NCBI RefSeq assembly: GCF_003818135.1
Contig: NZ_RPOH01000042.1
Location: forward strand, 1 to 64,000
Direction of reading: 5' to 3'
From: Buttiauxella warmboldiae
Lineage (GTDB): Bacteria > Pseudomonadota > Gammaproteobacteria > Enterobacterales > Enterobacteriaceae
Length of the DNA stretch: 64,000 nucleotides
Shown piece by piece: positions 47,450-64,000 of the stretch. The stretch's first letter is position 1, and each line of letters begins with the position of its first letter. The notes under the pieces are model-generated. The model searched no databases. It was given only the letters and a program-made list of their open reading frames with translations, and was not told the DNA's origin. A program made the position numbers and the translations under genes.

Positions 47450-47590
47450 GATATCTCCGGTTCAGGTAGTGGCCACGCAAGGCGCCGGGTTGCAACGTGC
47501 CTATAAAGAGTAATGCAAAATTTTTGCACGACAGGTTTATTTACGCCCGGCAATCACTCCATAGGCATCAGGCAGGATTTATCTCGATAG

Positions 47591-47606: not shown

Positions 47607-47647
47607 AAATGTTAATAAAGATGAGGAGTTCCGTTTCCGATTAGCGA

Positions 47648-47677
47648 ATGTTACCGATATCATGTTACCGGTATCAG
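47648..47677 (+). promoter_or_regulatory. Two adjoining GntR operators overlapping the promoter
   Basis: ATGTTACCGATATCAT (47648-47663) and ATGTTACCGGTATCAG (47662-47677) each match the GntR operator ATGTTACC-type consensus and share two bases. The first overlaps a TATCAT -10 box (47658-47663), which lies 17 bp after a weak TTCCGA -35. Gluconate-inducible repression by GntR is the likely control. Confidence 0.8.
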
Positions 47678-47739
47678 TAATACGGTGGATTACGCTTAAT
47701 GGCCATTCACCGATAAATTCGGCGCAGAGGATAAATGTT

Positions 47740-49116
47740 ATGACCGAAATGACAGCCCATTACGGTGCTGGAACCCTGCTGGGGATCGCAGCCTGTGCAG
47801 TTGTACTGCTGCTTATACTCATCATGCGCTTCAGGGTGCATGCCTTCTTAGCATTAACCCTTGTCAGCGTTGTAGTAGCCCTGGTCACGGGTGTTCCATT
47901 CGACAAAATTGTTCCGACGATTTTGGGTGGTTTTGGCAGCACCCTGGCGGGCGTTGCGCTGCTGGTTGGCCTTGGCGCGATGATCGGTCGTTTACTGGAA
48001 ATTTCTGGCGGCGCCAAAGTACTGGCCGACACGCTGGTCGGTAAATTTGGTTCAAACCGCGCACCGCTGGCGCTCGGCGTGGCTTCTCTACTGTTTGGCT
48101 TTCCGATCTTCTTCGATGCGGGCCTGGTGGTGATGCTGCCAATTATCTTCAGCGTGGCAAAACAGTTTGGCGGTTCAACGCTAAAATATGCGCTGCCTGC
48201 TGCGGGCGCGTTTGCCGTTATGCACGCGCTTCTGCCGCCTCATCCAGGCCCGGTTGCCGCCAGCGAATTGCTGGATGCGAATATCGGCCTGCTGGTGATT
48301 GTTGGTCTGGTCATCGCGATCCCGACCTGGTATCTCGGCGCCTATTTGTTTGGCCTGTACGCCGGTAAAAAATTCGACGTTCCGCTGCCTTCTTCATTCC
48401 TGGGCAATGTCGAAGCGGACCCTAATCACCAGCCGCCTGCATTTGGCACGGTATTGGCGGTGCTGCTGCTGCCACTGGTGCTGATTTTCCTGGATACCGG
48501 CCTGAATACGGCAACCGTGTTGGGCTGGGTAAGTGCTGATAGCACCGTCGTTCAGTTCCTGCGTATGTTGGGTAAAACCCCGATCGCGCTGTTGATTACC
48601 GTGTTCTTCACTCTTGCGGTATTCAGCGGCCGCCATAGCCGCCAGCATCTGGAAAAGGTGTGCGACGGCGCACTTGGCCCAATCTGCGGCATCATCCTGG
48701 TGACCGGTGCCGGCGGCATGTTTGGCGGCGTTCTGCGCGCCAGCGGCATTGGCGATGCGCTGGCAGGCATCCTGTCTGATACTGGTATGCCGGTGATTGT
48801 GGCCGCGTTTGTTATCTCTACCGCACTGCGTGTGGCACAGGGGTCGGCAACCGTGGCGCTGACCACCACCGCGGCACTGATCTCCCCGATGGTGGCAGCA
48901 ACGCCGGGCCTGAGCCAGTTCGACCTGTGCTTTATCGTGGTGGCAATTGCCGGTGGTGCAACCGTGCTGTCTCACGTGAACGACTCAGGCTTCTGGCTGG
49001 TTGGCCGTTTCCTGGAGATGGACGAAAAAACCACGCTCAAAACCTGGACCGTGATGGAAACCCTGATTGGCACCATCGCCTTCCTGTTCGCCCTGGTCGG
49101 CAGCATTATTCTGTAA
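47740..49116 (+). CDS. Gluconate:H+ symporter, GntP family
   Basis: A 458-aa inner-membrane permease with about 12-14 spans. Family motifs include GGFGSTLAGVALLVGLGAMIG, FPIFFDAGLVVMLPI, HALLPPHPGPVAA and the C-terminal SHVNDSGFWLVGRFLEM. I use the ATG at 47740 (MTEMTAHYG). The twin GntR operators upstream point to D-gluconate as substrate and to a GntT/GntU-like role. The sequence alone does not decide which paralogue this is. Confidence 0.88.
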   Translation: MTEMTAHYGAGTLLGIAACAVVLLLILIMRFRVHAFLALTLVSVVVALVTGVPFDKIVPTILGGFGSTLAGVALLVGLGAMIGRLLEISGGAKVLADTLVGKFGSNRAPLALGVASLLFGFPIFFDAGLVVMLPIIFSVAKQFGGSTLKYALPAAGAFAVMHALLPPHPGPVAASELLDANIGLLVIVGLVIAIPTWYLGAYLFGLYAGKKFDVPLPSSFLGNVEADPNHQPPAFGTVLAVLLLPLVLIFLDTGLNTATVLGWVSADSTVVQFLRMLGKTPIALLITVFFTLAVFSGRHSRQHLEKVCDGALGPICGIILVTGAGGMFGGVLRASGIGDALAGILSDTGMPVIVAAFVISTALRVAQGSATVALTTTAALISPMVAATPGLSQFDLCFIVVAIAGGATVLSHVNDSGFWLVGRFLEMDEKTTLKTWTVMETLIGTIAFLFALVGSIIL

Positions 49117-49190
49117 ACCGTGGTGTTACTAAAGTGTGACTGAAGTCGCTTTAAAGTAGGCCCTAAGCTCAGTATCATCACTACAGACTA

Positions 49191-49223
49191 AACCCTCACA
49201 CTTAGCGGTGAGGGTTTTCTTTT
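49191..49223 (+). terminator. Terminator after the gluconate permease
   Basis: AACCCTCAC and GTGAGGGTT pair across an 8-nt loop, followed by TTCTTTT. Confidence 0.85.
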
Positions 49224-49420
49224 GTAAGGTCCCCATCAGGCACAAGCAGGCCTCTGACTGATGACAAACCCCATGTTCTTCACAAAATGAACCCAGACAT
49301 TAATAAAAAACAAGGAAAATCAATTCATTGATTTCGGCTGATAACGACAAAGTAAGGAAAAGCCCCGCTTTTCCCTTTAGTCAGCAATCTCAGTGCCTGT
49401 TTTTTTACACGGAGAGAAAT

Positions 49421-49831
49421 ATGTCCAGACCAGCCATTATCATTAATGAACTCGATGCCGAGCGTATTGACCGTTTGCTTGAGCAGCCACAATTTGCCAA
49501 CCAGCCGGTAGCATTAGCGCTGAACGCAGAACTGGACAGAGCGGAAATGCGTAAGCCTGCCGATATCCCGGCTGACGTGGTAACGATGAACAGCCGGGTG
49601 AAATTCCGCGATCTGACCTCAAAAGAAGAGCGCGTTCGCACGCTGGTTTACCCGGTCAACCTGACGGACAGCGACAATCAACTCTCAGTGATGGCACCGG
49701 TTGGCGCGGCGCTGTTGGGGTTGCAAGTGGGTGCGAAAATTAACTGGACGTTACCGAACGGTAGCCAGACGCATCTGGAAGTGCTGGAGCTGCAATACCA
49801 GCCAGAAGCCGCAGGCGAGTATCAGCGCTAG
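49421..49831 (+). CDS. rnk: Regulator of nucleoside diphosphate kinase Rnk
   Basis: A 136-aa GreA/GreB-fold protein that binds RNA polymerase near the secondary channel. The C-terminal globular domain carries [20 protein letters not shown] and [16 protein letters not shown]. The N-terminal coiled coil is shorter than in GreA, as in known Rnk. The ATG at 49421 follows GAGAG and gives the same length as E. coli Rnk. The longer frame from 49328 is not needed. Confidence 0.95.
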
Positions 49832-49890
49832 CGCAGCTCCTTCACAATGGCTGTCTCTTAGCCATCTCTTTGTGGGCGCAAGGTAGCGAG

Positions 49891-49925
49891 AAAAAAATAG
49901 CCAGTCAGATACATAACTGACTGGC
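49891..49925 (-). terminator. Terminator of ybcJ
   Basis: GCCAGTCAG and CTGACTGGC pair across 8 nt. On the minus strand the stem is followed by TA and seven T. It may also serve rnk from the other side. Confidence 0.82.
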
Positions 49926-49957
49926 ATTATCCGTAACAGGCCGTTATCGGAGTGTGA

Positions 49958-50170
49958 TTACGCCTGAACCGTAATACTTAATGTCTCAAACGTTACCGTC
50001 TGGCCTGCCACAATTTTGCAGCGTTTGCGGGTTTCCACTTCGCCGTCTACCTGCACCAGCCCTTCCGCAATCACCGCTTTCGCCTGTGCGCCGCTTTCAC
50101 ACCAGCCTTCCAGCTTCAGCAGATCGCATAATTCAACGTGTGGGTGCTTACCTAATGAGAAGGTCGCCAT
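49958..50170 (-). CDS. ybcJ: S4-like RNA-binding protein YbcJ
   Basis: A 70-aa protein consisting of one S4-type RNA-binding fold (HVELCDLLKLEGWCESGAQA, AVIAEGLVQVDGEVETRKRC). It is probably involved in RNA or ribosome metabolism. The ATG at 50170 gives the same length as E. coli YbcJ and lies next to the folD stop, so the two are cotranscribed from folD. Confidence 0.95.
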   Translation of the reverse strand: MATFSLGKHPHVELCDLLKLEGWCESGAQAKAVIAEGLVQVDGEVETRKRCKIVAGQTVTFETLSITVQA

Positions 50171-50171
50171 T

Positions 50172-51038
50172 TTACTCTCCATCAGTATCATGATATTCCT
50201 CGCAAGCCTGCAAGGTATTCTGGATAAGAGTGGCGACGGTCATTGGGCCTACGCCACCCGGAACCGGCGTAATATACGAGGCTTTAGCAGCGGCTTCATC
50301 ATAATTTACGTCGCCAACCACTTTTCCGCTCTCCAGACGGTTAATTCCGACGTCCACCACAATCGCCCCTTCTTTAATCCACTCGCCCGGGATAAAGCCC
50401 GGTTTGCCGACCGCAACGATCACCAAATCGGCATTTTCAACGTGATGGCGCAGATTTTTGGTAAAGCGGTGGGTGACGGTGGTGGTGCAGCCTGCAAGTA
50501 GCAGTTCCATACTCATCGGACGGCCAACAATGTTGGATGCGCCAATCACTACGGCGTTCAGCCCATAAGTATCGATACCGTAACGCTCAAGCAGCGTTAC
50601 GATACCGCGCGGCGTACAAGGGCGCAGCCGCGGAGAACGCTGGCACAGACGGCCCACGTTGTAGGGGTGGAAACCATCCACATCTTTATCCGGGTCGATA
50701 CGTTCAAGCACTTTCACGTTATCGATACCCGCAGGCAGCGGCAACTGTACCAGGATACCGTCGATTTCTTTATCCGCATTGAGCGTGTCGATAAGCTCCA
50801 GCAGTTCTGCTTCGGAGGTGGTCTCAGGTAAATCGTAGGAGCGGGAAATAAAGCCGACTTCTTCACAAGCTTTACGTTTACTTCCAACATAAATCTGCGA
50901 GGCAGGATTCTCACCAACCAGTACCACCGCAAGCCCAGGAGCACGAAGTCCAGCGGCAATTCGGGCTTTCACTTTTTCTGCCACTTCAAGCCGTACCTGC
51001 TGCGCAATCGTTTTACCATCAATAATCTTTGCTGCCAT
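50172..51038 (-). CDS. folD: Bifunctional methylenetetrahydrofolate dehydrogenase/cyclohydrolase
   Basis: Cytoplasmic one-carbon enzyme, 288 aa. The catalytic lysine lies in the [13 protein letters not shown] helix. The substrate motif is [11 protein letters not shown], the NADP-binding region is [18 protein letters not shown], and the signature [19 protein letters not shown] is near the C terminus. It is the same folD-ybcJ pair that precedes argU in E. coli. Confidence 0.97.
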
Positions 51039-51225: not shown

Positions 51226-51302
51226 GCGCCCTTAGCTCAGTTGGATAGAGCAACGGCCTTCTAAGCCGTAGGTCACAGGTTCGAGCCCTGTAGGGCGTAC
51301 CA
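51226..51302 (+). tRNA. argU: tRNA-Arg, anticodon TCT
   Basis: A 77-nt tRNA. The acceptor stem GCGCCCT pairs with AGGGCGT, the discriminator base is A and CCA is encoded. The D-loop AGCTCAGTTGGATAGAGC is standard, the anticodon loop CTTCTAA puts TCT at 51260-51262, and the T-loop is GTTCGAG. It decodes rare AGA codons. In E. coli argU is the integration site of prophage DLP12; here a decayed integrase follows it. Confidence 0.97.
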
Positions 51303-52034
51303 TTTTCAAGCCAACACACCTCTACTGAATTCGCTTTTTCTCCTTTATACTCCCTGAAATAACTGGATTTTTTTGTCCCGAGCTCTACTGTGGTCAACTC
51401 AGTGATACCCAAATCAAGTGGTATCTGGGGGCCTTTGAGGGGGCTCATCTCGTTCAATGGAAATTAGAGGCCCCTATGCCACTAAATGCGCGACTGATTG
51501 ATACTACAAAACCCAATGAGAGTACAAACTGACTGATGGCGGTGGTTGGTATTTATTAGTCAAACGCAATGGTGCTAAGTATTGGCGTTTTTAGTACCGT
51601 GTTTTGGGTAAAGAGAAAAACTCTCCATCGGTGTGGTTTTGATTAACAACCATCTAAACTAATTCACATTTGAACTCCCTCTTTTCATTGGGTCATCTGT
51701 TGTCCTGAAGTGAGCGTATCACCTCCGTTAAGATGCTCAAATTCAATGTGCCGCTACAAAAATATCCAGCTTCAGCCATAAGTAAATCTACTTAGCCCAT
51801 CAGCCATTTTACATGGCATTACCACCATGCTCATCATCCGTGATTAAACCTAAAAGCAGCAAAGATACTTGTATCACATTATCAATATTTTATTTAAAAC
51901 AGAACCATAACCCCCTTATTAAAAGATATCCCATTGAATAAACGCATAAAAACAACGATAAGCGCCTAAAAAACCAACTTTAATACTCATTGATTTTATT
52001 GATGTTTTTTCTTTTCGCGACTCTTCAATCCTTA
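51303..52034. other. tRNA-proximal junction of an accessory region
   Basis: No intact gene is present between the tRNA and the MFS gene. The stretch holds G-rich repeats (51427-51455), a broken integrase start (51476-51646) and about 390 bp of AT-rich DNA in which I see nothing recognisable. I found no second copy of the tRNA 3' end inside the window. Confidence 0.6.
51476..51646 (+). pseudogene. Decayed P4-type integrase, N-terminal fragment
   Basis: The ATG at 51476 begins MPLNARLIDTTKPNESTN, the typical opening of P4-family integrases. After a frameshift the next frame gives KLTDGGGWYLLVKRNGAKYW, an in-frame TAG, then YRVLGKEK, and ends at about 51646. The catalytic part is absent. It lies 174 bp from the tRNA-Arg 3' end in the orientation expected for a tRNA-integrated island. 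Confidence 0.8.
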
Positions 52035-52062
52035 TTGACAGTCTCATCAGGATTAATTTACT
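52035..52062 (+). promoter_or_regulatory. Predicted promoter of the arabinoside operon
   Basis: TTGACA (52035-52040) and TTTACT (52057-52062) are 16 bp apart. The palindrome TTTACGTAAA (52075-52084) lies just downstream of the predicted start and shares ACGTAAAAT with the operator of the regulator gene at 57148. Confidence 0.5.
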
Positions 52063-52125
52063 TTTACTTTAGATTTTACGTAAATATTTCATGTTTATCT
52101 AAAACAAAAAAGACAGGAGCACAGA

Positions 52126-53448
52126 ATGGACGTAACTCATAGTGAGGTTTCCCCTCAAAGCTGGGGGGATAAAAAACGATTTACTCGCATAATTCCTATG
52201 CTTGCCGTGATGTATCTACTGGCTCTTATCTGCCGTAATAATATTGGATATGCGTTCCATGGGATGGATCAATCGTTTAATTTATCAGCGACAATTTCCG
52301 GCCTGGTCGGCGGGATCTTCTTCATTGGATATCTATTACTACAAATCCCAGGCGGTCATCTGGCCCAGAAAGTTAGCGCAAAAAAAATAATCACTTTCTG
52401 TATGGTTGCGTGGGGTTTAGTGTGTGTTTCCATGGGTTTTGTCCAAAGTGGTGGGCAGCTTTTGACTATGAGATTCTTGTTGGGATTAAGCCAAAGTATG
52501 CTTTATCCAACAACATTAATTCTGATCGGTAAGTGGTTCCCGCAGCGTGAACGTGCACGAGCAATCGGCTACTGGTCAATTGGGGCAACGGTTTCTAATT
52601 TTATTGTGGGTCCGCTTTCAGGATTCTTAGTCGATACATTTTCCTGGCAGATGCTTTTTGTTTTCCAGGGTATTCCGGTATTGATCGCTGTCATTTTTTG
52701 GATATGGCTGATTGCAGAGACTCCTGCCGAAGCAAAATTCCTCAGCAAAGCAGAGAAAGATTATTTGGCAACTGAATTTGCAAATGATACGGACAATACA
52801 ATTAAAAATACTAATAAGAGCGTCACCAGTCTTGTTCTGAAGAATAAATTTGTTTGGCTGCTGACATGTGTATTTCTCCTTAACAACATGTTTAACTATG
52901 GCTTAAGTATTTGGTGGCCAACAATTGCAAGTTCAGTAACTGGCTCAAGCTATACCCTGGTAGGGATCCTTTCCACAATAGCTCCACTTATTGGACTGGT
53001 CGTTATGTTTTTTGTATCCAGCCACTCTGACCGTACAGGCGAACGTAAATGGCATGCGGTATCCATTCTGCTTATCTGTGGGGTAGCACTTGCAATTTCA
53101 GCCCTAACTGAAGGGGCACCGTTTGTATCTATTATATTTATCCTAATCGCACAAGGTATTTGGGCCGGATTTAGCCCTGTATTCTGGACAATCCCCTCAA
53201 TAATAATTAGTTCTGCGGCAATAGGTGCAGCCACCGGTCTTATTAATGGCGTCGGTAATCTGGGCGGTTTCGTTGGTCCATACCTCTTTGGGTATCTGAT
53301 TGATCTTACGGGCAGCACTCAGATGGGGTTATTCTTTATTGTCGGAGTGCAAATAATGGCTGGGTTATTATTAGCCACATTAAAAAGTCCTAAGTTAGAG
53401 ATCGCAACAAAAAATATTCAATTGAAAAATTCAACCTCTACCAGATAG
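52126..53448 (+). CDS. MFS transporter, anion:cation symporter-like
   Basis: A 440-aa permease with 12 predicted membrane spans and an N-terminal cytosolic tail. The TM1 region (MLAVMYLLALICRNNIGYAF) and the loop-2 element GGHLAQKVSAKKI recall the ACS branch, which carries sugar acids and similar anions. It sits 19 bp upstream of a GH51 arabinofuranosidase, with AGACAGGAGC ahead of its start. It may import an arabinoside or a product of its breakdown, but sequence does not decide the substrate. Codon use is more AT-rich than in the core genes. Confidence 0.85.
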   Translation: MDVTHSEVSPQSWGDKKRFTRIIPMLAVMYLLALICRNNIGYAFHGMDQSFNLSATISGLVGGIFFIGYLLLQIPGGHLAQKVSAKKIITFCMVAWGLVCVSMGFVQSGGQLLTMRFLLGLSQSMLYPTTLILIGKWFPQRERARAIGYWSIGATVSNFIVGPLSGFLVDTFSWQMLFVFQGIPVLIAVIFWIWLIAETPAEAKFLSKAEKDYLATEFANDTDNTIKNTNKSVTSLVLKNKFVWLLTCVFLLNNMFNYGLSIWWPTIASSVTGSSYTLVGILSTIAPLIGLVVMFFVSSHSDRTGERKWHAVSILLICGVALAISALTEGAPFVSIIFILIAQGIWAGFSPVFWTIPSIIISSAAIGAATGLINGVGNLGGFVGPYLFGYLIDLTGSTQMGLFFIVGVQIMAGLLLATLKSPKLEIATKNIQLKNSTSTR

Positions 53449-53467
53449 TTTTAATGGAGTAAATAAT

Positions 53468-54982
53468 ATGTTCAACAAAGCAAGACTTGTTTTCGACAAA
53501 GACTATGTCATTTCAAAAATTGATAATAGAATTTACGGTTCCTTTATAGAAAATCTGGGAAGGTGCGTTTACGGTGGAATTTATGATCCACAGGACCCAA
53601 CAGCGGACAGCGATGGCTTCCGTAAAGATGTTATCGATGCTGTCAAGGAACTCAATGTTCCTATGATTCGTCTACCGGGGGGGAATTTTGTCGCAACCTA
53701 TATATGGGAGGATGGAGTTGGACCAAGAGATCAACGTCCACGGAAACCAGACCTGGCCTGGAAATGTATAGAAACAAATCAGATTGGAACGAATGAATAC
53801 ATGGACTGGCTTAATAAAGTCGGTGCTGAAGCAATGATGACGGTGAATGTTGGAACCAGAGGGATTCTGGACGCACTTAACTTATTAGATTATTGCAACC
53901 GTGAATCAGGAACATACTATAGTGATTTACGTGTTTCTCATGGCTATAAAAAACCACATGCCATCAAAACATGGGCCATAGGCAATGAACTCGATGGTGT
54001 ATGGCAGGTGGGGCAGCAAACACCATTTGAATATGCACGTATTGCAAGAGAAACAGCCAAAGCGATGAAGCGGCAAGATGGAAGCATACAAATAGTGGCT
54101 GCCGGAAGCGCTGGACAGGAATATCCAACATTCGGGGAATGGGAACAAACTTTAATTCAGGAAGCCCATCCTTTTATTGATTATCTATCCCTACATCAAT
54201 ACTATTTAAATGTTGAAAAAGATACGGCAAACTTCCTGGCGAAAACACTGGCTTTCGATGATTATATTAAGTCAATTGGTAGTTTGATTGATTATATGAA
54301 AGTAAAAAATAAATCACACAACAATATTTATATCTCTTTGGATGAATGGAATGTCTGGTATCATACGCGTAAAGATGATATGGCTGCCATTCGTGACCGT
54401 GGCAATGAATGGCCAATTGCTCCGAGCCTATTAGAAGAGCCATATAACTTCGAGGATGCTCTCGTCGCAGGGGCAATGTTAATTGCATTACTTCGTAACA
54501 GTGATCGAGTCAAAATTGCTGCCTATGCCCAACTTGTCAATGTGTTAGCACCTGTTATGACAGATAAAAATGGACAATTGTGGCGTAACACTATTTTCTA
54601 CCCTATTTTTTACACTTCAAAATATGGACGTGGCACTGCAATTCAAGGCGTGATTCAATCACCAAAATACGATAGTAGAGATTTTACTGATGTGCCTGTT
54701 TTAGATGCTGTTGCAGTGTTAAATGAAGATGAAACTGAACTGACATTGTTTGCAATAAATAAATCGCTTAAAGACCAGCTGGTAATTCAATGTGATTTCC
54801 GCTCTTTTGGTCACCTTGAGATGATCCAACATATCGCGCTAGAAAATGATAATGTTTACGCTGTGAATACATTAAAAAACCCCAACCTTGTTTTGCCAAT
54901 CGAGAAAAAAATCGCATCAGAAGCTAATCAGTTATCCCTGGAGCCCTTATCATGGAATATGATACGTTATAAAATAAAATGA
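53468..54982 (+). CDS. Intracellular alpha-L-arabinofuranosidase, GH51
   Basis: A 504-aa glycoside hydrolase with no signal peptide, so it is cytosolic. It has the GH51 layout of a (beta/alpha)8 barrel followed by a C-terminal beta domain. The acid/base Glu is in TWAIGNELDGVWQ (about residue 174), the nucleophile Glu in YISLDEWNVWYH (about residue 293), and MIRLPGGNFVATYIWEDGVG is a classic GH51 element. It should release L-arabinose from imported arabino-oligosaccharides. It is cotranscribed with the MFS gene and followed by a strong terminator. Low GC suggests transfer. Confidence 0.92.
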   Translation: MFNKARLVFDKDYVISKIDNRIYGSFIENLGRCVYGGIYDPQDPTADSDGFRKDVIDAVKELNVPMIRLPGGNFVATYIWEDGVGPRDQRPRKPDLAWKCIETNQIGTNEYMDWLNKVGAEAMMTVNVGTRGILDALNLLDYCNRESGTYYSDLRVSHGYKKPHAIKTWAIGNELDGVWQVGQQTPFEYARIARETAKAMKRQDGSIQIVAAGSAGQEYPTFGEWEQTLIQEAHPFIDYLSLHQYYLNVEKDTANFLAKTLAFDDYIKSIGSLIDYMKVKNKSHNNIYISLDEWNVWYHTRKDDMAAIRDRGNEWPIAPSLLEEPYNFEDALVAGAMLIALLRNSDRVKIAAYAQLVNVLAPVMTDKNGQLWRNTIFYPIFYTSKYGRGTAIQGVIQSPKYDSRDFTDVPVLDAVAVLNEDETELTLFAINKSLKDQLVIQCDFRSFGHLEMIQHIALENDNVYAVNTLKNPNLVLPIEKKIASEANQLSLEPLSWNMIRYKIK

Positions 54983-55007
54983 AACCTATCGCCAGGTTTC
55001 ATTTTTC
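54979..55007 (+). terminator. Terminator after the arabinofuranosidase
   Basis: ATGAAACCT and AGGTTTCAT pair around ATCGCC, followed by TTTTC. It overlaps the stop codon region by a few bases. Confidence 0.85.
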
Positions 55008-55049
55008 AGTAAAAATGAAAATATGATTTTTAAATATGTAATTATTTTT

Positions 55050-55072
55050 CTGGTGTCACAATTTGGCACCAG
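55050..55072. repeat. Inverted repeat between arabinofuranosidase and GPH transporter
   Basis: CTGGTGTCA and TGGCACCAG pair at eight of nine positions across CAATT. There is no T-run, so it is more likely a protein-binding site ahead of the transporter than a terminator. Confidence 0.4.
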
Positions 55073-55220
55073 TGATTACACTTTAAAATATTATTAGCAT
55101 GGTCAGCATATGATAATTCACATCCCGAACTGTTGATATTTTAGCTCTAACGGGAGTATTTATTAAGTTTGCTGCACACGCCACTTTTCAATTATCAACC
55201 TTATTCAAGGTGGTAACTCT

Positions 55221-56582
55221 ATGTACAAACACAAGTTAAGTACTTTTGAAAAAATTGGATTTGGTGCTGGGGATATGGCCATCAATCTGGTTTTTTCTTC
55301 CATGATGCTAATTATAACATTTTTCTATACAGATATTTTTGGCATTCGCTCTGAAGATTTAGTATTACTTTTTATTATCGTCAGGCTGCTTGATGGTATC
55401 ACAGATCCAATTATGGGATTAGTAACAGAAAAAATTGTAACGCGCCATGGCCGTTATAGACCATACCTTTTGTATTTCGCAATACCGTTTGGTATATCTA
55501 TTTTCCTGGCGTTCAGCACTCCTGATGTCGATTATAATGCTAAACTAATTTATGCATATGCATCGTATATATTTGTAACATTAATGTTTACGGTTATAAC
55601 AATCCCCTATATATCATTAATTAGTGTTCTAACTGATGATCCTAAAGAGCGCTTATCAGCAAATGGTTATCGACTTTTTTTTGCTAAAGCTGCGGCATTT
55701 ATGGTTTCAATTGTTGTTCCTCCCCTGGCTTCATATTTAGGCTCGTCAAATATGCAGTCTGGCTACCAGTATGCAATGGGATTGATGGGCCTGATGGGAA
55801 CACTATTTCTACTTTTCTGTTTTTTTTCAACGAAAGAACGTATTCATTACAAGAGTGATAACTTACCATTAAAAGAACAAATGAAAAGCCTTTTAAAAAA
55901 TGATCAATGGATTATTCTTTGCTTATCTTGCATATTTGTGTCCGTTGGTTCAGTTTTGAGAGGTTCGGTTGCTGCATATTATGCTAAATACAACCTTAGT
56001 GGTGATTCAGTTACTATTTCATATTTTTTAACTGTTGGCGTTTCTGCATTTATATGTTCAGTAATTACGTCTACCTGGTTAACAAAAAAATACTGTAAAA
56101 TAAAAGTATTTAAATACAGTCAAATTATAACTTTTATTGTTTCCATAGTGTTTTTTATGACTACGGATAATCAAAGCTTTGTTTTATCATGTTTCTTATT
56201 TTTTGTTCTTTCATTTTTTTCAACATTATATGCCCCCATATTTTGGGCATCTATCCCTGAGACAGTAGATTATGGATTTTATAAAACAGGGAAGCGTGTT
56301 TCCGGCCTGGCATTTGGCGGGATTGCGTTCTGTCAGAAGTTTGGCATGGGCATAGCGGGCGCTCTTGTTGGCTATTTGTTAAGTTATTTTGACTATGTGC
56401 CAAATGCCATGCAGTCTCCTTCTTCCACTCTCGGGATAGCATTGATGCTGACAATAATACCAGGAGCATTCCATCTGATTACAGGAATTATTATGTCTAA
56501 GTATATGATAACGGAAAAATATCATCAGTCGATAAATACCCATAATGTTTTAGCCGATTATAAAAAAGCCCACGAGGTCTAA
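55221..56582 (+). CDS. Glycoside-pentoside-hexuronide (GPH) family symporter
   Basis: A 453-aa cation symporter of the MelB/XynP/YicJ group with about 12 membrane spans. The N-terminal signature KIGFGAGDMAINLVFSSMML is typical. The loop RLLDGITDPIMGLVTEKI carries the Asp residues that coordinate the coupling cation in MelB (DxxxD). It starts behind CAAGGTGG. Next to a cytosolic GH51 enzyme it probably imports arabinofuranosyl oligosaccharides; that substrate is inferred. Confidence 0.9.
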   Translation: MYKHKLSTFEKIGFGAGDMAINLVFSSMMLIITFFYTDIFGIRSEDLVLLFIIVRLLDGITDPIMGLVTEKIVTRHGRYRPYLLYFAIPFGISIFLAFSTPDVDYNAKLIYAYASYIFVTLMFTVITIPYISLISVLTDDPKERLSANGYRLFFAKAAAFMVSIVVPPLASYLGSSNMQSGYQYAMGLMGLMGTLFLLFCFFSTKERIHYKSDNLPLKEQMKSLLKNDQWIILCLSCIFVSVGSVLRGSVAAYYAKYNLSGDSVTISYFLTVGVSAFICSVITSTWLTKKYCKIKVFKYSQIITFIVSIVFFMTTDNQSFVLSCFLFFVLSFFSTLYAPIFWASIPETVDYGFYKTGKRVSGLAFGGIAFCQKFGMGIAGALVGYLLSYFDYVPNAMQSPSSTLGIALMLTIIPGAFHLITGIIMSKYMITEKYHQSINTHNVLADYKKAHEV

Positions 56583-57075
56583 TCAATAATTATCAGCTTT
56601 AAAATTTCAGATAAACATTAGTACAGCTAATGGTAGCTTGATGAAAATGGAGATAATATGCAACATATAGTAATGATAATCATTACTCTGGCCGTTATTG
56701 TTTCTGCTATTTTATTAATTGCAAAATGTAGATAAAAACTCAGTAACCACAGTACAGATCTTTGAATTAAGGAATAATTAAATAACCATACTGAAACCAG
56801 TGGAGATATAAACTATCGAGAGTAAGCCTAACGGTAACGGAAAAATATTATGTTAATATCCTCTATCAGAACCGAGGGCATAAAGTCTAAATAATCTTGC
56901 GTAATAGCTAATCCTTTTCAGGGGCATATCGCGGAGGATCATTGGCAAAACTATCTGCTCACCATGGATGAGAGTCAGCACAGATTGCTAAAATTGCAAG
57001 TGATAAAAGGAGGAGCAACTGCAAGCAATCATTATCAATAGCATGTTGATTTATAATATTTATCACGCGTATAAA
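56583..57075. other. Region between the GPH transporter and the regulator
   Basis: About 490 bp of AT-rich DNA. It holds a possible 25-codon membrane peptide (56658-56735) and an open frame without a start (about 56911-57043, reading ANPFQGHIAEDHW) that may be a gene fragment. I see no complete larger gene. Confidence 0.5.
56658..56735 (+). CDS. Possible 25-aa single-span membrane peptide
   Basis: The ORF reads MQHIVMIIITLAVIVSAILL and ends IAKCR. It is one hydrophobic helix with a basic tail, and GGAG lies 5 nt before the ATG. It sits 75 bp after the GPH transporter. The ribosome site and clean helix make it plausible; the small size and AT-rich context allow chance occurrence. Confidence 0.35.
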   Translation: MQHIVMIIITLAVIVSAILLIAKCR

Positions 57076-57105
57076 AAACCATTTTACATAAACGTAAAAT
57101 GGTTT
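57076..57105. promoter_or_regulatory. Palindromic operator over the regulator promoter
   Basis: AAACCATTTTAC (57076-57087) and GTAAAATGGTTT (57094-57105) are perfect 12-bp arms around ATAAAC. The palindrome covers a TTTACA -35 (57083-57088) and ends at a TATACT -10 (57105-57110), spaced 16 bp. This layout fits autorepression by the ArsR-type protein encoded next. Confidence 0.7.
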
Positions 57106-57147
57106 ATACTTTGACATTGTGATAAATATTTATAGAGGTGTCTTCTG

Positions 57148-58056
57148 GTGTTATATATTAATAAGTTATCTACTGGAACATCTATATTTAAAGCTTTGAG
57201 CTCAGCAGTCCGAATTAGCATTCTTGAGATTCTTAATGAACGTAATGGCATGAATATGAATGCCCTCGCGGAGTATTTAGGTATTAGTAATGGTGCTGTT
57301 ACCATGCATATTAAAAAACTTGAAGATGCTGGACTCATAAAAACAGTATCAAATTATGCAAAAAACGGCATACAAAAAAACTGCTATGTTATTGAAAATA
57401 AAATTCTTATTGAGTTTGGTGATAATAAAGAAAATTATATCTATGAGTCCGATCTAAAAGTTGGACAGTACAGCAATTTTCAAGTAACGCCCACCTGTGG
57501 TATGGCAACAAAAGAGATGATCATCGGAGAGTTTGATAACCCTCAGGTATTTGCTGATCCAAAGCATATTGATGCGGGGATCATTTGGTTTACTACAGGT
57601 TTCTTAGAATATCGCATCCCAAACTACTCAGCTGGACGCACAGTAAGTGAAATTCAAATATCATTCGAAATAGGTTCTGAAGCTCCTTATTATAATGATG
57701 ATTGGCCATCTGATATTCATTTTTCTGTTAATGGAATGGATATAGGATATTGGCAAAGTCCTGGAGATATTGGCGGTATTAAATATAGTGGTAATCCAAT
57801 ATGGTGGCCGCCTCATCTGAATCAATACGGTTTTTTAAAACTATTAAGAATAAATAATAATGGTTCCTTTATTGATGGACGAAAAATATCTGACATTAAC
57901 ATTGCTCAAATCCTGCACAACAGGGAAGAAGAGCCTTTTATTCTTCGCTTCAGTGTTCACCCGGAAAGTGAGAACCCCCGTGGATTAACATTATACGGGC
58001 AGAACTTTGGGCGCTATGAACAGGGTATTCTAGCCAGAATAATCATACAATCATAA
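57148..58056 (+). CDS. ArsR-type transcriptional regulator with large C-terminal sensor-like domain
   Basis: A 302-aa protein. Residues 14 to about 90 form a winged helix (FKALSSAVRISILEILNERN, LAEYLGISNGAVTMHIKKLE). Residues about 105-302 form a beta-rich domain with many aromatic residues (YYNDDWPSDIHFSVNGMDIG, GNPIWWPPHLNQYG), unlike the short metal-sensing ArsR proteins, and no metal-site Cys cluster is seen. The start is GTG behind AGAGGTG. Regulators of this shape occur near glycoside hydrolases in Gram-positive bacteria. Here it probably controls the GH51/GPH genes in response to an arabinoside. The regulon and ligand are inference. Confidence 0.8.
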   Translation: MLYINKLSTGTSIFKALSSAVRISILEILNERNGMNMNALAEYLGISNGAVTMHIKKLEDAGLIKTVSNYAKNGIQKNCYVIENKILIEFGDNKENYIYESDLKVGQYSNFQVTPTCGMATKEMIIGEFDNPQVFADPKHIDAGIIWFTTGFLEYRIPNYSAGRTVSEIQISFEIGSEAPYYNDDWPSDIHFSVNGMDIGYWQSPGDIGGIKYSGNPIWWPPHLNQYGFLKLLRINNNGSFIDGRKISDINIAQILHNREEEPFILRFSVHPESENPRGLTLYGQNFGRYEQGILARIIIQS

Positions 58057-58632
58057 TTTATTTTGTTTAGGCTTGATGAAAAGATAGAGGCTAGTCATAA
58101 CAGATATCGCATGAATCAGGCAGTATTTAATCAAGATGATGTGAATATCACCCTCTATCCAAAAATCGGAGCGGACTGGCAACTTGACTGGATGCAGAAA
58201 TGCAAAGCCAGTCATTATGGCTAACACTCTACATTACAGTGAGTTATGGCGCCAGCCCCCTTCAATGTAGTAGTTGTTGAGAAAGGTCTGCCCGTTTATC
58301 GAAACCATTAATTATTCCCAATAGGTACGTTTAACCTGCAGCGATATCCATGCATTCAACGCGGCTATTTCACTGATAAGCGCCCTGCTCTTCTGCACAC
58401 TCGTCTTATATTCGGATACTCCCGGCTACCAGCAAGTAAGACTCAATCAAAAAGATCACGATGAGGACAGAACCCCGTAATAGGCACGGTAAAATTTTCC
58501 AGCAGCGATCGCTGTATTGTTGGTTGCCGCAGCGTTTAATCGTCGGGAGATATCATCTTATCCGCATCCCGGTTCAGCGGGTAAAGCTCAGGGCTCACTC
58601 ATTCCATACCCAGTGATTCAGACGAGGAACCA
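58057..58632. other. Region of short decayed frames
   Basis: Contains a 37-codon frame on the plus strand (58111-58224, NQAVFNQDDVNITLYPKIGA) and a minus-strand frame (about 58420-58234) that reads ALISEIAALNAWISLQVKRT, a stop, then SINGQTFLNNYYIEGGW. They look like remains of genes, but I cannot assign families. No intact gene is supported. Confidence 0.45.
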
Positions 58633-59478
58633 ATGAAAATAACCCTTTCAGATAACAGGCAAACTGAAATAAACGTTGAAGTATTTGGTGAAGGAGAACC
58701 CGTATTGTTTTTGCACGGTGGGCCGGGCTGTTGCCACGATTCTTATGCCTCCTTTTTTAAACCCCTTAGCGAACATTGCCAGATTATCTATTTTGACCAG
58801 ATAGCATGCGGTTCTTCTGACTGGTCGATAAGCGGCGAATACCATATTGCTCATGAACTTGAAGTTATCGAAGCCATACGTCTGCAGCTCGGCCATAAGC
58901 GCCTGACCGTGGTGGGGGAATCATGGGGAACCATGCTTGGTTTACAATATGCGTCTCACTATCCTGAACAAATCAACCACCTGATATTACTCTCAAGCGT
59001 AGGCTCCGGGCTTGAGCAAATGCGTTTATTTGGTGAACGGCTAAGTGCAAAAATATCCGATAAAGACCGCACGGCTTTACAGGAAATTGAAGCCCGTATT
59101 AACCACGGAGAAATGAAACAGCAGGACGGGATGGCCGCTTGCCAGAATATTTACAACCGCTATTACCTGTTCAATCCTGCAAACCAGGCAAAGATTATTC
59201 AACAGCCGATAAACTTTGAACAGCATCATCGCGTGCTGGAACGCTTTGATACTGAACTGGATTTTCTTACACGCCTTGAGCAATTACGCAAGGTGAAAAT
59301 CCACATGTACCAGGCCACGCATGATTTGATTAACCCTCGGGATATTGACGAAATTCTTGTCAGTAAACTCAATCCAGTCACATTCAAAGCGGTACCAGAA
59401 TGCGGCCACTGGATTTATCTGGAACAAACGGACTATATCAACGATGAAATTTTGCGCATCGTGTTGTCCGGCCATTAA
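58633..59478 (+). CDS. Alpha/beta hydrolase, proline iminopeptidase-like
   Basis: A 281-aa cytosolic serine hydrolase. The HGGPG motif (residues 28-32, LFLHGGPGCC) forms the oxyanion hole typical of proline iminopeptidases. The nucleophile elbow is VGESWGTMLGLQYA, an acidic residue lies in ATHDLINPRDID, and the histidine is in VPECGHWIYLEQ. It lacks a signal peptide. Substrates of this family range from N-terminal proline peptides to small esters, so the function stays open. GACGAGGAACC precedes the start. Confidence 0.82.
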   Translation: MKITLSDNRQTEINVEVFGEGEPVLFLHGGPGCCHDSYASFFKPLSEHCQIIYFDQIACGSSDWSISGEYHIAHELEVIEAIRLQLGHKRLTVVGESWGTMLGLQYASHYPEQINHLILLSSVGSGLEQMRLFGERLSAKISDKDRTALQEIEARINHGEMKQQDGMAACQNIYNRYYLFNPANQAKIIQQPINFEQHHRVLERFDTELDFLTRLEQLRKVKIHMYQATHDLINPRDIDEILVSKLNPVTFKAVPECGHWIYLEQTDYINDEILRIVLSGH

Positions 59479-59489
59479 AAGTCTGTCTG

Positions 59490-59575
59490 AAGAGCGGGCT
59501 TGATGGCAGCATGCTGCAAAATATCGCCCGCGAAAATAACCTTTCAGAAACGGCGTTTGTGGTAAGCAGGCTAAA
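59490..59575 (+). pseudogene. PhzF-family fragment
   Basis: Just after the hydrolase stop, an open frame reads SGLDGSMLQNIARENNLSET followed by AFVV. This is the conserved N-terminal stretch of PhzF-type isomerases (LxxxxMQxIAxENNLSETAFVV). There is no PhzF N terminus before it and no barrel domain after it, so it is a remnant of about 29 codons. Confidence 0.7.
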
Positions 59576-59610
59576 GGTTGCGCTTTATGGGAAAAGCGCC
59601 CTGTCAGCTT

Positions 59611-61221
59611 TTATATGTCGATAAACAGCAAACGCCTGCGGGATACGGTGGATTTTTCAAATACGGCTTTTGCCATTAAAGCGCCTATTTCCGCACATGC
59701 CGTCAGCCCCTGAATAAATGGCCGGTCATGCATCAGCCAGGGTAGCGCACCGAATGCAATACGCCCACGAACCGCTGCGGGTTCTTGCAGCGTGTAGTCG
59801 TCACTGACATCGGGAATATCATCACCGGTCAACTCAAGCTGCCTGCGTAACGTCGGGAATGGAAGATCTTTAGTCTTTAAGGGTTTTTGACCACGGGCAT
59901 CAATAAAAATATCAAACACATGCTCTTGTTGTTGAGTGCAAATCCGCGTCTGGCTCTCTTGTATCTCCATCTCATAATCCTGACCGAGAGTAAGAATAGT
60001 GATAATTCCAGCCTCGCGTAAGGCCAGTAAACGACGAATTGATTGCGAAGGAATTGCCGCATAATTATCGATAAATACTCGAGCAAGCCCTGCGCTGAAT
60101 CTTTTGCGATCCCGCTCGTTAAGGTGGGGTACGATTTCCTGCACGGTTTCATGTAACCGGAGGATCGCATAACGCCATGGCACGGTACGTCGCTCACGCT
60201 TGTTAGCTTCGACTTCATGCAGGTTCAACTCAGCCCAATGAAACGGATCGCTGTTTTTCCGGGTGGCAAACCAGGTATCAGTAAAACTATCGGCATCCAG
60301 TGAACGCAGCCCCACCTGTTCGCTCCATAGCGGATCGGCCTGTTCTATTTCCTTAGCCATCAGGCCAAACACCCGGTCAAGCAAACCGTCTGCACCGGCA
60401 GCAATCTCGTGATTTATTGCCGCTTCAGTCACGATATTTAAGGGTTGATAGGGAATGGGGCAATAAAAATCCGCTTCCGGCAGAAAGCCTGAGCGTGACA
60501 TAAGCACGAGGTTAAGCGCTTCGCTTCCATGATCGAGCTTGAACTGCGTGCGCTCGCCATCGATTTCAACAAACTCACCATGCTGGATCACCACCGCCAT
60601 TGCCGCATCCAGGCCACTTAAAGAGGTTCCCATGATGCCAACCCTGCACGCGGGAATTTTCGCCTCCATCAGCCCAGACCACGGGCTGGGGAAGAAGGTA
60701 CGGGTTGATTCCTCCTCATCAGGCCAGACATGTCCAGTGGCAATCACCGCGAGATCGAACTGCTCTGCCGCTCTTGCCTTTGCCGTCCACAGCTTCACGC
60801 CCCCTTCAGTGGCTTCCAGATCGGTGACTTTACATAACTCATTAACCGTCACCTCAAACCCCTGCGCCCTCGCCTGAGACACCAGTTGCAAAAACTGGTT
60901 GCGGAAATATTCACCCAGCAGAATACGCGGCAGGAACTGGCGAATATGAAGTGAGGCACGCTGCACTCCATAGCGAGCCAGATGGGATTCATTCTGACTC
61001 AGTAGCCAGTCGATGTAGCTCGAAAAAATAGGCGGAATTTCTATACTGGCAATATTTGCCAGCATCATTCGGGAATTATCTTCATCGCTGTAAGGCATGC
61101 CTACTCCAGCCTCGCTGCCTTGCTCATACACCGAAACGGAAAGGGGCTCATTGTTTTTCAGGAGCGAAAAAAAAGTATAAATTCCCGTTGGGCCAGCACC
61201 AATAATCGCCACTTTTTTCAT
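59611..61221 (-). CDS. FAD/NAD(P)-binding protein (PF13454 type)
   Basis: A 536-aa flavoprotein. The N-terminal dinucleotide fold begins KKVAIIGAGPTGIYTFFSLL (GxGxxG). A second nucleotide fold is seen at RVGIMGTSLSGLDAAMAVV, with an ATG-type motif LAVIATGHVWPDEEE. This matches the large FAD-NAD(P)-binding proteins of enterobacteria with no assigned reaction. It may be a monooxygenase or oxidoreductase. The ATG at 61221 places the Rossmann motif at the N terminus; the frame from 61254 adds 11 doubtful residues. Its GC content is closer to the core genome than that of the arabinoside genes. Confidence 0.82.
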   Translation of the reverse strand: MKKVAIIGAGPTGIYTFFSLLKNNEPLSVSVYEQGSEAGVGMPYSDEDNSRMMLANIASIEIPPIFSSYIDWLLSQNESHLARYGVQRASLHIRQFLPRILLGEYFRNQFLQLVSQARAQGFEVTVNELCKVTDLEATEGGVKLWTAKARAAEQFDLAVIATGHVWPDEEESTRTFFPSPWSGLMEAKIPACRVGIMGTSLSGLDAAMAVVIQHGEFVEIDGERTQFKLDHGSEALNLVLMSRSGFLPEADFYCPIPYQPLNIVTEAAINHEIAAGADGLLDRVFGLMAKEIEQADPLWSEQVGLRSLDADSFTDTWFATRKNSDPFHWAELNLHEVEANKRERRTVPWRYAILRLHETVQEIVPHLNERDRKRFSAGLARVFIDNYAAIPSQSIRRLLALREAGIITILTLGQDYEMEIQESQTRICTQQQEHVFDIFIDARGQKPLKTKDLPFPTLRRQLELTGDDIPDVSDDYTLQEPAAVRGRIAFGALPWLMHDRPFIQGLTACAEIGALMAKAVFEKSTVSRRRLLFIDI

Positions 61222-61531
61222 TCTTATTCCTCTGCCGTTATTTATCTCATCCATGCAGATTTAAGATCAGGCTTAGCTAACGACTTCCGGCAACGCCTCT
61301 GCCAGACAATTATCCTGGTCACACATGGTTTTCCTGCGGCACTACGCATCCCTTTCGTATCATGCACCTAATAGCGTAGTTGGTTTCTGCACGGTTAAAA
61401 CCACAGAACAATATTTATCCATAACTATTTATCTATAAAAATGGATAGATCCCGAAGAAAGAAAAGAAATCAATAAATCATCCTGTTGTTATTTATTATT
61501 TTATGGTTAATTTCAGCATATACATCATTTA

Positions 61532-61547
61532 TGCCACACTCATCACA
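61532..61547 (+). promoter_or_regulatory. CRP-like site of the araE remnant
   Basis: TGCCA-CACTCA-TCACA matches TGTGA-N6-TCACA at eight of ten positions. It lies upstream of the AraC-like site, in the arrangement used by E. coli araE. Confidence 0.5.
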
Positions 61548-61560
61548 CAAATGACCACGA

Positions 61561-61577
61561 CAGCATAATAGTCCATA
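61561..61577 (+). promoter_or_regulatory. AraC-type half-site of the araE remnant
   Basis: CAGC-ATAATAG-TCCATA matches the araI1-type pattern TAGC-N7-TCCATA at nine of ten fixed positions. Confidence 0.6.
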
Positions 61578-61680
61578 TCTCTGTCAGCCCGGTGTAAGAC
61601 GGTTATAAGCAAGTTCTTATACAGTTCAACAACGGTTTTCGGAAAGCACAGTGAGCTTCCGCGATTGACGGAGAATAGTT

Positions 61681-61890
61681 ATGTCTAATGAAGTCTTGCC
61701 TGGTCGTCCTGTTCATCTCAACATCAAAGTACGCGATTCGCGCCGAATGACGCTGTTTGTTTCCGTTCCGCAGCGGTGGCGGGGCTGCTGTTTGGGCTGG
61801 ATATCGGCGTGATTTCCGGGGCGTTGCCCTTTATTACTCAGCACTTTACTTTATCCAGCCAGCAACAGGAGTGGGTGGCCAGTAGTTGAT
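61681..61890 (+). pseudogene. araE: araE 5' remnant (arabinose:H+ symporter)
   Basis: The ATG at 61681 follows CGGAGAAT. The frame reads normally to [13 protein letters not shown], then one base is missing (about 61768). The shifted frame continues [20 protein letters not shown] and [18 protein letters not shown], which is the first two membrane spans of AraE, and stops at about 61890. The remaining 85% is absent. The upstream CRP and AraC sites are still recognisable, so the loss looks recent. Both the frameshift and the truncation would abolish function. Confidence 0.85.
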
Positions 61891-61893
61891 GCG

Positions 61894-61931
61894 AAAAACC
61901 AGCCAGGTCTTAAATAACCAGAGCTGGTTTT
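61894..61931 (-). terminator. Terminator of the diguanylate cyclase gene
   Basis: On the minus strand AAAACCAGC and GCTGGTTTTT form the stem and the T-run, separated by about 19 nt that can fold further (CTCTGG/CCTGG). It lies 19 bp past the cyclase stop codon. Confidence 0.65.
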
Positions 61932-61949
61932 GTCATGAGCTACCCCACG

Positions 61950-63353
61950 TTAAAGCGTATGTTCTATACCGAGCGAGTAGCTTTCAATACGGTTGCGCCC
62001 GTTGTTTTTTGCCTGATATAACATTTTATCGGCTTTATTAATAAGCCATTGGTAGTCAGGATGATTATCAAACTCGGCAAGCCCGGCACTGATGGTGATG
62101 TTAAATGAGGTATTTACATCAACTTCAATCACCTGGCTGGCAATATCATTGCGTAACCGCTCCATAAGCGTTTGTGCCTGGGCTAGCGGGGTTTCCACCA
62201 GCAATAGCATAAATTCTTCACCGCCATAGCGGAAAACATAATCACTACTGCGAACATGCTCATGCAACCACACAGCGATGCTTTTTAGCGTGTTATCCCC
62301 TACGCTGTGGCCATAGCTATCATTAATTTGTTTAAAATAATCGATATCCAGCAGGGCAATAGTAAAAGACTTACCGGAACCGATGGATAAAGCAATCTCA
62401 CGTCTCATAATCGTCGGGATAAAACGTCTGGTGAGCAGCCTGGTCAGCGGATCTTTACCATTCTCACTTTTCACAATCTCTTCAAATATTGAGCTAAGAA
62501 TCATATTGACCTGCTCTACATCCTGTCTTAACAGGCGTAGCAGGTGGATTCGACTCAGCATATCAGCAGAGTCGTTAGCAAATTCAGTCGCAATCAACCG
62601 ATCTATTTTTTGGATTAACGAATCAATTTTGTGAATTAAATCTGGCTGTCTGAATATATGCTGGCCTTTATGGGAAAACCATAAACCAAATTCAGAATCA
62701 CTGAGCAGCACTCGTTCCTCAAAAGGTAACTCAGTGGCAACATTATAAATAAATTGATTTTCCCAGTCTTTTAAAGCGCCGAGCTGCCGCTCGCGTTCGA
62801 CGCTCATATCATCGTAAACCGTCAGCAGGCGAAAATGCTCCTGATCGTGCATCATTTTCTGATGTGATGGCGTAAAGGCGACGGTCATCACTTCAATAGC
62901 TGAATCTATTGCCATGCCGCTAAAAAATATCGCCTGGTTAATTTCTGCAGCCGTGAGTTGCGCTTTACTTAATAGCAGCTGAAAAAGCTCATATTTCAGC
63001 TTGCGGGCGCCACGGGCAACCAGCTCGATAGGCAGGCCGATACGGGCGTGCACTTCGCCAACCTTACGTTGATGCGCAATGAGTTCAGAGAGATCCTCAC
63101 GTGAGCTCCCCAAAACTTTACGCAACCAGTTAATCATGCTGGCGCTCAGCCGCTCTTCAACCTGAGAGGTGCTAAGAAATAGCTGTGCCTTCTCATCCTG
63201 CAACATATATTGATAATAAGCATCAACCAGGGAGCCGATCTCCTCATCACTAAGGGCGATGAGTGTCTGATGAGTTGCAGTATTTGTTTTATTAATTAAC
63301 AACTGCCACTCATTTTTAATAACATCATAATTAACAGGCTGGGTGTTTTTCAT
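61950..63353 (-). CDS. dosC: Globin-coupled diguanylate cyclase (DosC-like)
   Basis: A 467-aa haem-based oxygen sensor. Residues 1 to about 170 form a globin-sensor domain. His102 in GEVHARIGLP aligns with the proximal His98 of E. coli DosC, and Tyr47 with its distal Tyr43. A middle domain follows (about 200-290). The C-terminal GGDEF domain has the active motif RYGGEEF, with an I-site RSSD five residues before it, so it should make c-di-GMP and be product-inhibited. In E. coli dosC is followed by the phosphodiesterase dosP; no dosP is present here, and the gene ends at a terminator. Confidence 0.88.
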   Translation of the reverse strand: MKNTQPVNYDVIKNEWQLLINKTNTATHQTLIALSDEEIGSLVDAYYQYMLQDEKAQLFLSTSQVEERLSASMINWLRKVLGSSREDLSELIAHQRKVGEVHARIGLPIELVARGARKLKYELFQLLLSKAQLTAAEINQAIFFSGMAIDSAIEVMTVAFTPSHQKMMHDQEHFRLLTVYDDMSVERERQLGALKDWENQFIYNVATELPFEERVLLSDSEFGLWFSHKGQHIFRQPDLIHKIDSLIQKIDRLIATEFANDSADMLSRIHLLRLLRQDVEQVNMILSSIFEEIVKSENGKDPLTRLLTRRFIPTIMRREIALSIGSGKSFTIALLDIDYFKQINDSYGHSVGDNTLKSIAVWLHEHVRSSDYVFRYGGEEFMLLLVETPLAQAQTLMERLRNDIASQVIEVDVNTSFNITISAGLAEFDNHPDYQWLINKADKMLYQAKNNGRNRIESYSLGIEHTL

Positions 63354-63688
63354 AAGTGTAACATTTATTCTTCGCGAGATATTATTTCTATTAAGAAATG
63401 CTCTTAGTGGCCGGGATAATATATCAGCCAGGATTTTTTGTATAATTTTATAATATTTATAAGGTTGATATTTTTAGCGTATTAATGTCATCAGGCTAAA
63501 AGCCCCTTATCCTTAGCCCCCTCTGTGCAAAAGAGCGCCATCCTCGGGATAAAAGCAATACTAACATCACGATAGCTGCGAATTTTTACCTTTTCTTTCT
63601 TTGAGCATTGGCAAAAATCACGAACCTGAACCATAGTTTAAACGTTAGGAAAACACACTATGTTCCACCATCAAAAATGAGGTTCATC
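63354..63688. other. Divergent region between dosC and the DUF1471 gene
   Basis: 335 bp, AT-rich around 63420-63480. It must carry both promoters, but I could not place convincing boxes. No gene or repeat is seen. Confidence 0.45.
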
Positions 63689-63967
63689 ATGAAGATAGCA
63701 CAAGCCATTTTTGCCACAATTGCTTTAGGTTCCCTCTCATTCGGTGCCATCTCGGCAGAGTTGTTGAGTAAAGAAGATTTTAAACAACATCAAGACCAGT
63801 ATGTGAAAGTGGGAAGTATTACTACCTCTGGTGAAACTTCACCGAGTGACGCTAAAGAAGAACTCTCCAAAAAAGCTGATGCGCTTGGCGGTCAATTTTA
63901 TGTCGTCACCTCTGCAGATACCGACAATAAAATCCACGGTACCGCAGACGTGTACAACAAGAAGTAA
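63689..63967 (+). CDS. DUF1471 (YhcN/BhsA/McbA-type) periplasmic protein
   Basis: A 92-aa small exported protein. Residues 1-22 are a signal peptide (MKIAQAIFATIALGSLSFGA, cleavage after ISA). The mature part has the DUF1471 fold: KVGSITTSGETSPSDAKEEL, then ADALGGQFYVVTSADTD and a C-terminal IHGTADVYNKK. Members of this enterobacterial family respond to acid, peroxide or biofilm conditions. The ATG at 63689 has TGAGG 6 nt upstream; the ATG at 63677 overlaps that site. The gene is complete, ending 33 bp before the window edge. Confidence 0.88.
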   Translation: MKIAQAIFATIALGSLSFGAISAELLSKEDFKQHQDQYVKVGSITTSGETSPSDAKEELSKKADALGGQFYVVTSADTDNKIHGTADVYNKK

Positions 63968-64000
63968 TCTATATCGCAGCTAACCACACAAACTAAGCCA

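Follow-up and report, generated by a model that had tools for sequence, protein, structure and literature searches.

An ArsR-type regulator with a predicted carbohydrate-binding-module-like domain and candidate operators shared across phyla in an arabinofuranosidase module of Buttiauxella warmboldiae

The stretch of Buttiauxella warmboldiae DNA analyzed here (assembly GCF_003818135.1, contig NZ_RPOH01000042.1, positions 1 to 64,000; hereinafter, the window, that is, all 64 kb) encodes a 302-aa ArsR-type regulator (57148..58056, forward strand), with three genes upstream of it on the same strand, for a major facilitator superfamily (MFS) transporter, an alpha-L-arabinofuranosidase of glycoside hydrolase family 51 (GH51) and a glycoside-pentoside-hexuronide (GPH):cation symporter. 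This protein is probably a repressor that responds to arabinosides and controls both its own gene and an arabinofuranosidase operon of foreign origin, a reading in which we infer DNA binding, repression, dimerization, the nature of the ligand and ligand-induced release. The computed results comprise the domain anatomy and predicted fold of the regulator, an operator motif shared across phyla and its places in the window, gene linkage, and rarity among the relatives of the host. A preliminary description of the locus had already proposed a sugar-responsive ArsR repressor, and this appears to be the best-supported reading because the C-terminal domain has a predicted fold like that of carbohydrate-binding modules (CBMs), relatives in other phyla adjoin sugar genes (GH51, GH43 and sugar ABC transporters), and the motif occurs at both promoters of the module.

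The open reading frame of the regulator starts with GTG, a choice supported by relatives that begin at the same position, and its assignment rests on the open reading frame list, profile matches and relatives. Profile matches and alignment to relatives place a winged-helix DNA-binding domain in residues 1-90 (57148..57417, forward strand): the ArsR-type winged helix lies at residues 17-67, where HTH_20 scores 38.6 bits (cut-off 27) and the HTH_5/arsR profile 35.2 bits (cut-off 22). The recognition helix, SNGAVTMHIKKLE, is nearly identical to SNGAITMHIKKLE in Paenibacillus relatives, which fits a common DNA site for the two. All five Trp residues of the protein are in the C-terminal part, and Trp and Tyr together account for 17 of the 208 residues at positions 95-302, so that the earlier picture of an ArsR winged helix joined to a large part bearing Trp and Tyr holds.

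No Pfam match at E<=0.1 was obtained for residues 93-302 (57424..58053, forward strand), and a scan of 70 aligned members at the same threshold yielded no CBM family, the only hits being GvpH (one member, 0.051) and FHA (one member, 0.079). Because a fold search with the whole model returned mostly winged helices, residues 93-302 were folded separately. The predicted structure is a jelly roll that is closest to CBM6/35/36 modules, which agrees with the affinity for carbohydrates previously surmised from composition, the identity to the fold-search matches being 4-17% only. Furthermore, in all 70 members of alignment A2, W202, S204, P205, G206, D207, G209, P217, W219, W220, N225 and G228 are invariant; the stretch of residues 202-228 (codons at 57751..57831, forward strand), which is largely an inter-strand loop, is accordingly a candidate effector site. 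A cytoplasmic jelly roll of this type would bind an arabinofuranose-containing ligand, most likely an arabino-oligosaccharide or arabinoside that enters via the GPH or MFS carrier. That the effector is instead free L-arabinose, a uronate or a xylo-oligosaccharide is possible although less probable: some of the fold-search matches, at the low identity given above, bear the titles of CBM35 complexes with glucuronic acid or anhydrogalacturonic acid and of CBM36 complexes with xylotriose, but the GH51 step precedes free arabinose, the only PF06964 match in the genome is the GH51 enzyme of the module, and araA, the sole ara gene that was sought, lies on a different contig.

The operator motif was learned from the 320 bp that precede the regulator gene in each of 20 Firmicutes relatives (loci L010-L030, one of the 21 being dropped because its upstream region was too short), with the window excluded from training and a second-order background. 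The resulting motif, TatTTTAtattaataTAAAatA (i.e., TatTTTA-N8-TAAAatA), has about 50 sites in the 20 promoters, and its search score was 222 compared with at most 129 on 20 shuffled sets, which were run with fewer starts. Only the position-weight model revealed the shared motif: simple palindromes were not found upstream of most relatives, and those found had no sequence in common with that of the window. Five of the 12 model versions were scanned over the 64 kb. The site at 52085-52106 (TATTTCATGTTTATCTAAAACA), which ends 19 nt 5' of the MFS start codon, ranked first in four of these and second in the fifth, an 18-column palindrome in which it came behind 45435; it is the candidate operator of the MFS-GH51-GPH operon. 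The match at 45432-45456 (scoring up to 16.3, and top-ranked in a single version) was discarded as a decoy because it precedes a ribonuclease-T2-family gene. Written in degenerate form, the motif matches exactly at one place in the 4.3-Mb genome, 52085-52106, and with one mismatch at 10 others. The palindrome at the promoter of the regulator itself (57076..57105) has the same core and spacing, ATTTTA-N8-TAAAAT. The likely main target of the regulator thus lies outside the region covered by the preliminary description, which contained no operon site.

The weightiest evidence that these candidate sites are operators is the comparison with one other enterobacterium, G296, which belongs to a different genus and carries all four genes (identity of 91% for MFS, 91% for GH51, 80% for GPH and 87% for the regulator) at another tRNA locus (tRNA-Gly/Cys/Leu). 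In the 12 kb of this locus, L099, the two best matches of the relatives-only motif are at the regulator and operon promoters in all four versions scanned: the 22-column model gives CATTTTAAATAAATCTAAAATA upstream of the regulator a score of 19.2, attained in 0 of 3000 shuffles, and TGTTTTAGATTTACATAAAACA upstream of the operon scores 18.6 (1 of 3000). Moreover, 30 of 34 bases around the site of the regulator are the same in the window and L099, whereas the remaining spacer can be aligned only with many gaps.

Under the mechanism that we propose, the ArsR-type winged helix would bind TTTTA-N8-TAAAA palindromes, presumably as a dimer. Without ligand, the regulator would occupy 57080-57101, covering its own -35 element and blocking its own transcription, and 52085-52106, downstream of a conserved TTGACA, blocking transcription of the MFS, GH51 and GPH genes. 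Ligand binding would cause it to leave the DNA; the GH51 enzyme would then liberate intracellular arabinose for the arabinose pathway of the host, and loss of the ligand would restore repression. The TTGACA in question (52035..52040, forward strand), found by inspection of the sequence and alignment, is conserved in L099 and is a candidate -35 of the operon promoter. An activator or a protein of dual action, which when bound to ligand would recruit polymerase at the operon while autorepressing from its own promoter, is an unlikely alternative. The 17 of 21 Paenibacillus-group relatives (L010-L030) with two to four operator-like sites upstream of the regulator, at recurrent spacings that include 83, 95 and 101-105 bp, suggest cooperative binding or looping and would suit activation as well, as would the unclear -10 of the operon; helical phasing of these sets is R 0.48 at 10.5 bp (33 spacings), with other periods slightly better. 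However, the own-promoter site covers the -35, the operon site falls between the conserved TTGACA and the start codon, only 19 nt from the latter, a placing that is presumably commoner for repressors, and ArbR of Caldicellulosiruptor bescii is argued to be a repressor from mapped transcription starts in the accessible passages of PMC8579813.

For the repressor reading, the own-promoter site deserves closer description. The perfect inverted repeat at 57076..57105, AAACCATTTTAC-6-GTAAAATGGTTT, has 12-bp arms and a 6-nt spacer by exact sequence match; when the 565-nt intergenic region was shuffled with its dinucleotides preserved, 9 of 5000 shuffles contained a perfect palindrome with 12-bp arms and a gap of up to 20 nt, and there are three in the window. 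A promoter consensus scan locates a -35-like TTTACA (57083..57088, forward strand) within it and a -10-like TATACT (57105..57110, forward strand) that begins on its last base. The arrangement reported earlier, with exact arms spanning the -35, is therefore correct, whereas the perfection of the outer arms is lost in the nearest relative (L099), in which the inner ATTTTA-N8-TAAAAT is kept. From the motif scan and the L099 comparison, the candidate autoregulatory operator is CATTTTACATAAACGTAAAATG (57080..57101), with this core. That the palindrome is instead an RNA hairpin or a chance repeat is improbable: the unconserved outer arms and a motif score that is modest by itself would agree with this, but the conservation of 30 of 34 bases amid a poorly alignable spacer and the score of the L099 version, unequaled in the shuffles, would not. 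Nested around the palindrome is an outer inverted repeat of doubtful role (57055..57130), AATATTTATCAC (57055-57066) and GTGATAAATATT (57119-57130), which was considered as a second operator and is set aside as a minor feature; its 8-nt ends are absent from L099.

Several observations weigh against the repressor reading or narrow its reach. Jelly-roll arrangements are common, 10 of the 50 fold-search rows are Cry insecticidal proteins, the Foldseek TM-scores for the C-terminal domain are low, and likeness of fold alone demonstrates no function. Depending on the motif model, the own-promoter palindrome takes a place between second and sixth among the matches in the window, and its score is equaled or exceeded in 151 to 476 of 2000 shuffles of the region, which alone is not significant; this site is assigned as an operator because of its conservation in L099 and its perfect dyad. 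No -10 is assigned at the TTGACA of the operon, where the promoter consensus scan listed nothing, and a terminator-like hairpin separates the GH51 and symporter genes. Outside the training set, in 59 loci (L031-L089), a threshold score of 12 was reached upstream of 24 of the 56 regulator genes and 11 of the 38 GH51 genes, against 45 of 432 other genes, so that the motif appears less specific beyond the training clade. Among low-G+C promoters the corresponding figures are 17 of 30, 8 of 12 and 41 of 147 (GH51 versus others, Fisher p 0.009). Sites scoring at least 14 precede 39 other genes; ten of these, picked by hand, are nine genes for solute-binding proteins and one for GH43, plausibly regulon members, and the other genes are hence no clean control. 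None of six regulator promoters of plasmid relatives (rhizobia, enterococci, Priestia and Paenibacillus) reaches 12, and the rhizobial and enterococcal branches may therefore use a different site. Finally, GH51 also occurs on plasmids without the regulator (346 versus 259 records, e.g., 20 in Klebsiella), these being totals by genus and not paired records.

In ArsR-type metal sensors, the ligands come from a Cys motif in helix alpha-3. Least probable of all, and rejected here, is the reading as an ArsR protein of the usual kind, sensing metal or redox state, with a structural extra domain and sugar genes nearby by chance: the ArsR-type winged helix, the invariance of C117 in alignments A1 and A2, and a best NCBIfam match to the metalloregulator model NF033788 (E 5e-12) point that way, but the score for this model, 45.4 bits, is below the curated cut-off of 55 and places the protein outside the model, the only Cys residues are 79 and 117, with none in the third-helix region (residues 34-50), and GH51 linkage recurs across several phyla.

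Turning from the single case to the family, we lean toward the view that the CBM fold, which is found elsewhere chiefly on secreted enzymes that act on plant cell walls, is the intracellular sensor in many ArsR-type one-component regulators that form a large family, share a single operator code in bacteria as distant as Paenibacillus and enterobacteria, and move between phyla together with the operator and a GH51 operon. A genome scan for relatives of the regulator gave at least 590 confirmed stretches, the best 80 of which were used for locus comparisons; among these 80 loci, 55 have a GH51 match in the flank, with identity above 40% in 23, and the closest named relatives of the regulator are from Firmicutes (54-55%). 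In tblastn searches, the regulator matched 259 plasmid records, 257 of them over at least 80% of its length (Rhizobium 149, Sinorhizobium 67), and GH51 matched 346 (Rhizobium 150, Sinorhizobium 67). An alpha-N-arabinofuranosidase and sugar ABC operon directly follows the regulator gene in both Sinorhizobium medicae and Rhizobium tumorigenes, and four of the six plasmid loci fetched have a GH51 match. Two close copies of the regulator family are present at loci L034, L035, L037, L043, L059, L065 and L087, and perhaps differ in ligand.

Among the relatives of the host, the module is very rare. Within the genus, 1 of 12 genomes has a match, and within the family 2 of 392; sampling of the order gave 1 in 394 and of the class 1 in 369. 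The samples overlap, and each count includes the genome of the window; in 60 relatives, two further matches cover the winged helix alone. A blastn search with a 1061-nt query found no similar DNA in Escherichia coli genomes, at a sensitivity that would miss distant homologs. The module is A+T-rich (G+C of 0.34-0.41 at 52000-57999, compared with 0.48-0.59 at 40000-50499 and 0.42-0.52 at 58000-63999) and adjoins a tRNA-Arg (tct) gene (51226..51302, forward strand). Rarity, composition and the adjoining tRNA gene suggest acquisition by transfer, with Firmicutes, the group of the closest named relatives of the regulator, as the most likely source. No repeat of the tRNA-Arg 3' end of 15 nt or longer was found in the window as a mark of integration. 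Beside the tRNA gene, 51426-51631 is 68.8% identical to intS_6, which is annotated as a putative integrase gene in a plasmid record of Klebsiella aerogenes, and is perhaps what remains of the element with which the module arrived.

The remaining genes, all on the forward strand, are those of the MFS transporter (52126..53448; Pfam MFS_1, 203 bits), which is the first gene of the operon, ArfA of GH51 (53468..54982; NF051901, 672.5 bits against a cut-off of 625) and the GPH symporter (55221..56582; profile matches), the latter two confirming the neighbors named previously. A perfect hairpin with 12-bp arms (54976-55005) overlaps the GH51 stop codon and is terminator-like on the minus strand; it might set expression of the symporter apart from that of GH51. 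Upstream of the operon, the alignment also contains a conserved TGTATCACA stretch (51870-51878 in the window, 3712-3720 in L099), which we take to resemble a CRP half-site.

It is usual to assume that ArsR proteins are metal sensors, and yet hundreds of relatives in Firmicutes and rhizobia appear to sense plant arabinosides through a CBM-like domain. The operator motif would let regulons be predicted in gut and soil Firmicutes, the enterobacterial module with its two promoters is small enough for a direct test, and it offers a case of a regulator that crosses phyla together with its DNA sites.

The idea has a precedent. For abfA in Caldicellulosiruptor, a regulator of the ArsR family, ArbA (also printed ArbR), was predicted in 2021 in an article that calls it the first example of this family in carbohydrate utilization (PMC8579813, accessible passages). 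Among the matches listed in searches of the open-access literature, this article was the only one in which a sugar regulator of the ArsR family was identified, and nothing was found on the sensor fold, an operator shared across phyla or an enterobacterial case, which appear to be the new elements here; the class had been described as one with little experimental description in enterobacteria, and the 2021 prediction qualifies this. In the accessible main text of a 2024 review (PMC10766802), neither ArsR nor ArbA was found. The arabinan cluster of Geobacillus 56T3 is headed by a gene labeled 'ArsR family' and adjoined by genes for a solute-binding protein, a GH43 arabinanase and an arabinofuranosidase (PMC4428132, accessible part); the label is an annotation, and the comparison is one of gene neighbors.

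As far as the accessible passages of PMC8579813 go, ArbA and the regulator described here have in common an ArsR-type protein linked to an alpha-L-arabinofuranosidase gene and predicted sites, computed in our case, at the control regions of both, with repression predicted. ArbA is divergent from abfA and has three predicted sites, in the control region that the two genes share, whereas here the regulator gene follows the operon and the two promoters have a single site each; the comparison is one of descriptions, those passages do not include the structure of the sensor domain, and Caldicellulosiruptor is absent from the best 80 of the at least 590 relatives. With the ArsR/SmtB metalloregulators (SmtB, CzrA, CadC and ArsR), our protein shares the ArsR-type winged helix, but it has about 205 extra residues, scores below the NF033788 cut-off and lacks Cys in the third helix. 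With CBM6, CBM35 and CBM36, it shares the predicted jelly-roll fold, at 4-17% identity and with no Pfam CBM match; unlike in these modules, of about 120-137 residues, the domain spans 210 residues, is fused to a winged helix and is presumably cytoplasmic.
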